A model generated the notes under the pieces. It saw nothing but the letters and a program-made list of their open reading frames with translations. It was not told the origin of the DNA and did no database searches. 64,000 bases of DNA from an uncultured Hyphomonas sp. (GTDB taxonomy: Bacteria; Pseudomonadota; Alphaproteobacteria; Caulobacterales; Hyphomonadaceae): assembly GCF_963678195.1 (NCBI RefSeq), contig NZ_OY782759.1, forward strand, positions 992,001 through 1,056,000. The letters are read 5' to 3'. This document shows, in pieces, positions 54,570 through 55,860 of this stretch (position 1 is the first letter of the stretch; each line of letters begins with the position of its first letter). The translations under genes and the position numbers were made by a program.

Positions 54570-55523
54570 ATGCATTACGCCCCCCGTATTCTCGTCACCG
54601 GCGGCGCCGGTTTTATCGGCTCATTCCTGTGCGAGCGCCTGCTCGACTCGGGGGCTGAAGTCCTCTGCGTGGACAATTTCTTCACCGGCCGGCGGACCAA
54701 TGTCGCCCATCTTCTGGACAATCCGCGCTTCGAGATCATGCGCCATGACGTGACCTTCCCGCTCTTCGTGGAGGTCGACCAGATCTACAATCTCGCCTGT
54801 CCGGCAAGCCCGGTTCATTACCAATACGATCCGGTCCAGACGACGAAGACGAGCGTGCATGGCGCAATCAACATGCTCGGCCTCGCCAAGCGGACCCGTG
54901 CAAAAATCCTCCAGGCGTCGACTTCGGAAGTCTATGGCGATCCGGAAATCCACCCGCAGCGGGAAGAGTATTGGGGCAATGTGAACCCGATCGGCCTGCG
55001 CTCCTGCTATGACGAGGGCAAGCGCTGCGCCGAGACGCTGTTCTTCGACTATCACCGCCAGCACAAGGTGAAGATCAAGGTCGCCCGCATCTTCAACACC
55101 TATGGTCCGCGCATGCACCCGAATGACGGCCGCGTCGTGTCGAACTTCATCGTACAGGCCCTGCGCGGCGAAGATATCACGCTCTATGGCGACGGCCAGC
55201 AGACGCGCAGCTTCTGTTTCGTCTCTGATCTGGTCGATGGTCTGATCCGGCTGATGAACTCCGAGGATGACGTGATCGGCCCGATCAATCTGGGCAATCC
55301 CGGAGAGTTCACCATGCGCCAACTGGCCGAGACGGTGCTGGAGCTGACGGGCTCAAAATCCGGGATCGTGAACCGGCCGTTGCCGTCGGATGATCCGCGT
55401 CAGCGTCAGCCGGACATTTCAAAGGCCAAGTCTGCGCTCGGCTGGGAACCGACCATCCCGCTCGCCGAAGGCCTGAAGCCGACGATCGAATATTTCCGGA
55501 ACGAGATTTCGGAGATGGCTTAG
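54570..55523 (+). CDS. uxs: UDP-xylose synthase (UDP-glucuronate decarboxylase, UXS type)
   Basis: A 317-residue SDR-type enzyme that converts UDP-glucuronate to UDP-xylose. NAD site [14 protein letters not shown] near 11-24, VDNFFTGRR near 34-42, the UXS-specific run [12 protein letters not shown] near 74-85, [14 protein letters not shown], and catalytic SCYDEGKR (Tyr-x3-Lys) near 146-153, then [19 protein letters not shown]. Full length. Supplies UDP-xylose (or UDP-arabinose) to the surface glycan. The gene is followed by a structured element at 55586-55648. Confidence 0.93.
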
Positions 55524-55585
55524 GGGCGGTTGCGCATTCAAACCGTACATTTGATCCGCTGGGGTGCCCTTGCTTGCGCGGCGGG

Positions 55586-55648
55586 CATTCGTTTCCTGAA
55601 ATCGATCCTTGATCGATTTCTACACCTTTGGTGTACCGGAAGCGAATG
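55586..55648 (+). ncRNA. Compact three-way-junction RNA element of unknown identity
   Basis: Read on the plus strand, 55586-55596 pairs with 55638-55648 over 11 bp (one G.U, otherwise Watson-Crick). This stem encloses two perfect hairpins side by side: 55598-55620 (10 bp, CTT loop) and 55621-55635 (6 bp, TTT loop). Only nine of 63 bases are unpaired. On the minus strand the G.U becomes a C.A mismatch, favouring plus-strand transcription, 62 bp behind the UDP-xylose synthase stop. Its right edge touches the 3' CCA of the antisense-oriented tRNA. It could be a 3'-UTR element, small RNA or palindromic repeat. Confidence 0.6.
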
Positions 55649-55723
55649 GTGGGCCCGGCAGGATTTGAACCCGCGACCAAACCGTTATGAGCGGTCCGCT
55701 CTAACCAACTGAGCTACAGGCCC
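55647..55723 (-). tRNA. tRNA-Ile2 (anticodon CAU, lysidine-requiring)
   Basis: A 77-base tRNA with encoded CCA. The acceptor stem is GGGCCTG paired with CGGGCCC (one T.G), the D arm is AGCTC-GGTTA-GAGC, and the T arm contains GGTTCAAATCC. The anticodon loop CTCATAA gives CAU. C4-G69 and C5-G68 and the TTTGGTC variable region match tRNA-Ile2, whose C34 is converted to lysidine by TilS to read AUA, rather than elongator tRNA-Met. It stands alone between the UDP-xylose synthase gene and galE. Confidence 0.9.
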
Positions 55724-55860
55724 ACCGAAGCACCCGTTTAGGCGGGTGATGTGCGCCTTGCAATGGGCCTGATGAATCTCACCGAAATGGGTAACTTCGT
55801 CTTTCCGGAATTGTGGTTAATTCCCTGAAACCGGGCGCGATTCTTGCTAGGTAGGGGACC

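Follow-up and report, generated by a model that had tools for sequence, protein, structure and literature searches.

We favor, with moderate confidence, the reading that the 63-nt element at positions 55586-55648 of the window, the 64,000-nt stretch of Hyphomonas DNA analyzed here, is a copy of a mobile DNA palindrome, REP-like and probably non-autonomous, that is located at the 3' ends of stable-RNA genes. The family to which it belongs consists of short palindromes dispersed in Caulobacterales DNA, each a three-way junction some 57-68 nt long, behind which a tail hairpin usually lies. The sequences show that most of the copies examined begin precisely where a tRNA or RNase P RNA gene has its 3' end.

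The initial annotation had described the element as a three-stem fold that could hardly have formed by chance, and refolding bore out both statements. The plus strand forms an 11-bp closing stem (one G.U) enclosing two hairpins, of 10 and 6 bp, each with a loop of three bases, leaves nine bases unpaired and reaches -31.1 kcal/mol, an energy that none of 200 shuffles attained (mean -10.55, sd 2.4, z -8.56). The minus strand folds likewise except for one C.A mismatch (-27.2 kcal/mol, z -7.40), and with DNA folding parameters the two strands are almost equal (-19.5 for plus, -18.9 for minus). Fold energy alone is unremarkable, with 175 of 21313 plus-strand 63-nt segments of the 64 kb (step 3) at -31.0 kcal/mol or lower; the distinctive traits of the element are its nested, near-perfect pairing and its recurrence elsewhere. 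The best match of the covariance model R1 in the window is the element read on the minus strand, which is the tRNA strand (79.6 bits, E 2.9e-19, a score obtained with the window copy itself in the training set), and a weak second match lies on the opposite strand over hairpin B. The features are summarized in Table 1.

Table 1. Features of the element and of the adjoining tRNA gene, in window positions
Feature	Positions	Strand	Basis
tRNA gene, anticodon CAU	55647..55723	-	ARAGORN (cat, printed as tRNA-Met); Rfam tRNA match
Complete three-way-junction element, read in tRNA direction	55586..55648	-	z -8.6 (+), -7.4 (-); covariance model R1
Closing stem, 5' arm; first two bases are the CA of the tRNA CCA	55638..55648	-	sequence, fold
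Hairpin A, 6 bp, loop of 3	55621..55635	-	fold; differs among copies with paired changes
Hairpin B, 10 bp, best-conserved part	55598..55620	-	fold, alignment
Closing stem, 3' arm	55586..55596	-	fold
Tail hairpin with inner GCGCAAGC	55566..55586	-	read from sequence
Probable 3' remnant of an older copy: hairpin B 3' strand, one base, closing-stem 3' arm	55535..55557	-	sequence

Across the family, the same order of parts recurs. The closing stem measures about 11 bp and draws on the CA of CCA for its first pairs; with it come hairpin A, hairpin B, whose apex is conserved, a single unpaired base and the tail hairpin. In 58 of 131 matches the tail showed a perfect short stem and a loop of 4 nt, and the loop was GGCA in 48 of these 58. 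Hyphomonas tails frequently carry GCGCAAGC in place of GGCA, and several other Hyphomonas copies are trailed by tails similar to that in the window. T after the tail hairpin is present in some copies elsewhere, and a probable remnant like the one in the window also lies behind the element at L113, L116, L118 and L130.

Since the CCA of the tRNA ends at 55647 on the minus strand, the element starts inside it, and the previously claimed abutment on the 3' end of this tRNA, labelled tRNA-Ile2 in the initial annotation, holds; the closing stem even takes in the CA. In an Rfam search of the window, only the tRNA passed a gathering cut-off and the element was unmatched, in agreement with the earlier remark that no named family fits. 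The gene on the other side, on the plus strand, which the initial annotation names a UDP-xylose synthase gene, matches epimerase and GDP-mannose dehydratase families. From the G.U wobble, an RNA made in the plus direction had been proposed, either as a small RNA or as a 3'-UTR structure of this epimerase gene. The slightly better fold of the plus strand in the window copy (-31.1 vs -27.2), the plus-strand upstream gene and two terminator-like sites at 55569-55587, both on the plus strand, would fit such a transcript. However, no promoter-like site was found within 55400-55860, the best model match is on the minus strand, and the relatives follow tRNAs and RNase P RNA rather than this gene and are oriented with the tRNA. 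The lone G.U in the window copy says little because G.U and A.C mismatches are about equal in a strand-neutral count over the copies (37:32, see below), and we regard the proposal as highly improbable.

The covariance search that had been suggested as a check turned up covarying versions in many genomes of the family and the order. Relatives were found in at least 62 of 105 genomes of the family (E ≤ 0.1) and, across the order, in at least 90 of 398 genomes and 19 of 59 genera (E ≤ 1e-4); the rows of the training alignments A1 (18 rows) and A2 (19 rows) were chosen by eye, so the statistics favor good copies and the model favors copies of the tRNA type. The core of hairpin B (at most one mismatch) occurs in 23 of the 105 family genomes. 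Presence is patchy, with an arm-pairing test passed at 10 of 43 loci of the CAU tRNA from 42 genomes (the flank at L133 was too short to judge, and the arm at L130 is interrupted). At L123 (G056), the CAU tRNA appears to end in CCG rather than CCA, and the 3' arm of the element matches the change.

Within the same genome, a DNA search gave four more partial matches to the element. One of them, L004, which shares 21 nt, was dropped as chance, with no fold or tRNA in view. The hairpin B core is exact at four places, the window included, and recurs with two mismatches at one more. When the 3' flanks of all 41 tRNA genes found were read, a three-way junction stood behind the CAU tRNA of the window, Leu(gag), Leu(tag) and Pro(cgg), and a simple hairpin behind Pro(ggg). 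A further copy starts at the 3' end of the RNase P RNA (RF00010 match ending at L010:1474). At E ≤ 1e-3, the covariance model recovered 8 places, which are those at the CAU tRNA, Leu(gag), Leu(tag), Pro(cgg) and its second copy, the RNase P RNA, a tRNA-Val remnant and 770473-770531. The remnant is a 40-nt 3' piece of tRNA-Val(tac) trailed by a reduced element, and it shares 97.5% identity with the intact gene, which lies at a distance of about 12 kb (G000:C1:3246968-3259271; L003, L030); the piece and the intact gene probably mark an integrated island.

The genomic context was tabulated for 131 matches; 98 fetched sources contributed 108 of them, and other families of the order the remaining 23. 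The family-level part was made up of automatically taken loci and 60 fetched places, and the counts are biased because the model was trained mostly on tRNA copies. An intact tRNA is abutted by 92 matches (17 tRNA types), at an offset of -2 in 89, -1 in two and 0 in one, and these lie on the tRNA's own strand, the only one that the script examined. Other CCA ends, most of them belonging to tRNA 3' pieces or to tRNAs that were not called, precede 13 matches (14 scored by the script minus L208:1595, which was reassigned by hand to the second copies). RNase P RNA precedes 11, as assigned by a shared sequence motif with Rfam run on the own-genome copy alone, and 10 are second copies behind tRNA, CCA or RNase P sites. 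The remaining contexts, with stop-codon and ORF assignments made by eye, are three stop codons (genes with PNTB and Sod_Fe_C domains at L268 and L277, and a third at L299), the interior of an ORF (L301) and one place elsewhere (L213).

Independently of the model, the bare hairpin B core came first behind a tRNA in 25 of 40 matches from other Hyphomonas genomes. Seven of the other 15 are further copies behind a tRNA, and eight had no called tRNA, among them L087, which does end in a tRNA 3' end. None of the six core matches in other genera adjoins a tRNA, which counts against the preferred reading. Core matches that were set aside are L079, L080, L084, L098 and L106-L109; judged by eye, the last four resemble ordinary coding sequence. 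A deeper search of four genomes placed 17 of its 30 matches at tRNAs or CCA ends and 13 elsewhere, eight of the latter being one repeat type in G313; copies away from tRNAs include these eight and three alike in G087. The likeness to tRNA-adjoining palindromic repeats, pointed out in the initial annotation, is supported.

Whether pairing is maintained in DNA or in RNA can be approached through the mismatches. On the alignment fitted to the model, both-sided changes occur in 23 of 27 pairs (reached by 1 of 500 shuffles), 96.6% of the cells pair, and the covariation score of 0.605 was reached by none of 500 shuffles. Structured RNA tolerates G.U and not A.C. Counted in a strand-neutral way over the copies, G.U stands at 37 vs 32 for A.C, with ratios of 16:19 in the closing stem, 10:2 in hairpin A and 11:11 in hairpin B. 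The tRNA-abutting copies gave 22 vs 27, and another strand-neutral count of the closing stem gave 23:39. As a control, the 103 tRNAs of the fetched loci showed 38:1 in acceptor stems and 35:0 in T stems (73:1 together). Because G.U and A.C are about equal in the element, unlike in tRNA stems, we read the pairing as maintained in DNA, and on balance the sequences make maintenance at that level seem the better description, which weakens an RNA role. A ratio of 53:23 on the model-fitted alignment had pointed to RNA-level covariation; this count was discounted because the fitted model rewards G.U on one strand, and the idea was not borne out by the strand-neutral overall and closing-stem counts set beside the tRNA control. 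Such a count with a tRNA-stem control is a simple test separating DNA-level from RNA-level covariation, a distinction that matters for covariance searches for structured RNAs.

Three observations stand against a mobile-DNA reading and lean to an RNA role, namely the fitted count, the 10:2 of hairpin A, which runs contrary to the overall count, and the better fold of the modelled (tRNA) strand in 82 of 100 distinct copies. They would suit a 3' trailer, in which the tRNA or RNase P precursor carries junction and tail and these direct or delay 3' processing, for instance as an RNase III substrate. The exact abutment on the mature 3' end in 92 of the 131 matches and on RNase P RNA in 11, the shared strand with the tRNA, the strong covariation and the GGCA loop in 48 of the 58 perfect short-stem tails also agree with this explanation. 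Nevertheless, we consider a trailer unlikely in view of the near-equal G.U and A.C counts, both overall and in the tRNA-abutting copies, the patchy presence at CAU-tRNA loci (10 of 43) and the related hairpins within transposase genes described below. Furthermore, no terminator-like site (G+C-rich hairpin with T-run) was found on the tRNA's strand in the window.

Signs of mobility come from transposase genes interrupted by inserts of about 40 nt, each a relative of hairpin B together with short flanks. Against uninserted homologues, the gaps measure 40 nt at L082 (IS3), 40 nt at L097 (IS256), 41 nt at L085 (IS3-like) and 39 nt at the first site in L105 (IS3), whose second insertion is ambiguous in size, with a 28-nt gap by the aligner and 33-34 nt by BLAST spans. 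At L336 (G011), the hairpin is contained in a Y1_Tnp ORF, where, judged from protein motifs, it is probably an in-frame insert of about 42 nt. A full unit lies at L301 within a frame that is open at both sides and stopped inside the unit; the ORF may be rhs-like, and the insert size there is likewise an estimate from protein motifs. Pfam found nothing in either piece of this ORF, and a search for uninserted homologues gave one partial match for L301 and none for L336. Two tRNAs carry layered copies. Behind the CAU tRNA of G075, a different full copy stands at the CCA, and the next 79 nt align with the 3' half of the window copy and the sequence beyond it (92.4%). At tRNA-Pro(cgg) of the own genome, 97 nt stand in place of the 8 nt of L229, and after them comes a 69-nt remnant that shares 95.7% identity with the L229 copy. 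At both, a different and newer copy precedes a damaged older one.

With regard to the hallmarks of MITEs, the arms of the element are inverted repeats; the homologues are too distant for defining a target-site duplication, and the homologue comparisons showed neither a target duplication nor a clean within-species empty site. A REP driven by a RAYT was rejected, as the Y1 enzyme (PF01797) has no match in the own genome and is absent from 20 of 28 element-bearing genomes (present in eight); in the family, 21 of 105 genomes have one. Scanning 11 Y1 loci gave weak element matches only at L336 (E 0.016, inside the Y1 ORF) and L279 (E 0.038), and no mobilising enzyme was found. Copying among tRNA loci by recombination, either gene conversion or template switching at palindromes and with no transposition enzyme, would leave a similar picture. 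The own genome without a Y1 transposase, the similar elements at Pro(cgg) and Pro(ggg) and the tandem copies 113-122 bp apart behind tRNA-Leu(gag) are consistent with it, but the copies at unrelated sites (RNase P RNA, stop codons, an ORF) and the related hairpins in transposase genes make recombination as the sole route quite doubtful.

In the preferred reading of a mobile DNA palindrome, the unit would spread as DNA, its folded single strand probably being recognised by an enzyme that either acts in trans or has since been lost, and would reach the 3' ends of stable-RNA genes by insertion or by copying from one such end to another. The simplest account is such a REP-like palindrome, unusually fixed at RNA 3' ends through targeting or local copying. 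Base pairing between the element's 3' arm and the CA of CCA may help to determine the site, and an influence on tRNA 3' processing, if there is one, would be a secondary matter. A more specific version can be put forward only tentatively, in which a new class of miniature mobile DNA homes to the exact 3' ends of tRNA and the unrelated RNase P RNA genes, is recognised as a single-strand three-way junction with its 3' arm paired to the CA of CCA in the target, and each arrival displaces its predecessor and leaves a layered record behind the gene.

Among known systems, GTAG REPs are short dispersed palindromes, often 3' of genes and sometimes within them, and mostly simple stem-loops of 20-40 bp; in the sections of that account drawn on here, tRNA is mentioned in connection with tRNA-modifying or synthetase genes alone (Di Nocera et al. 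2013, PMC3733652). The present family resembles them in its dispersed short palindromes 3' of or inside genes and in the GTAG or GNAG found in the 5' arm of several copies from other families of the order, and also at the three stop-codon copies. Unlike GTAG REPs, as portrayed in those sections, the element is a 63-nt three-way junction with a tail hairpin fixed at stable-RNA 3' ends, it occupies 8 places in its genome (E ≤ 1e-3) rather than reaching a high copy number, the window 5' arm lacks a terminal unpaired GTAG tag, and the genome has no Y1 transposase. It was not filed as a REP because of the missing tag and enzyme and the different size and copy number. Rickettsia palindromic elements and CGTC REPs are common in alphaproteobacteria, lie in part inside genes and have no known dedicated transposase according to the same sections, and CGTC REPs are single hairpins of 8-9 bp with a CGTC tag (PMC3733652). 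The first three traits are shared by our family, whereas the window copy has no CGTC tag and forms a three-way junction instead of a single hairpin. A general tool counts 3,707 REPs in Hyphomonas jannaschiana (PMC12306157). Among the titles and abstract openings of the openly licensed PMC papers retrieved, no published account of this palindrome family was found.

The 3' ends of tRNA genes are classic entry points of islands and phages, which are kilobases long, carry an integrase and duplicate the tRNA end. The element likewise uses tRNA 3' ends, but it is shorter than 100 nt, has no integrase and also takes RNase P RNA as a site. A palindrome of this size placed to the base at tRNAs and at the unrelated RNase P RNA would call for either a novel targeting mechanism or some novel function at the ends of RNA genes.

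Several minor observations were made along the way. At L193, L202, L233, L244, L260, L269 and L271, elements stand behind apparent tRNA 3' pieces instead of whole tRNAs, possibly as marks of past integrations. The eight repeats in G313 (L313, L315, L318, L320, L322, L324, L326, L328) are longer composites in which hairpins resembling A and B occur, and none of them has a tRNA within 250 nt. Finally, the tandems behind tRNA-Leu(gag), seen at L095 (G063) and also at L074, L077, L093 and L101, repeat the 3' part of the element, and only the copy adjoining the tRNA has a full 5' arm.
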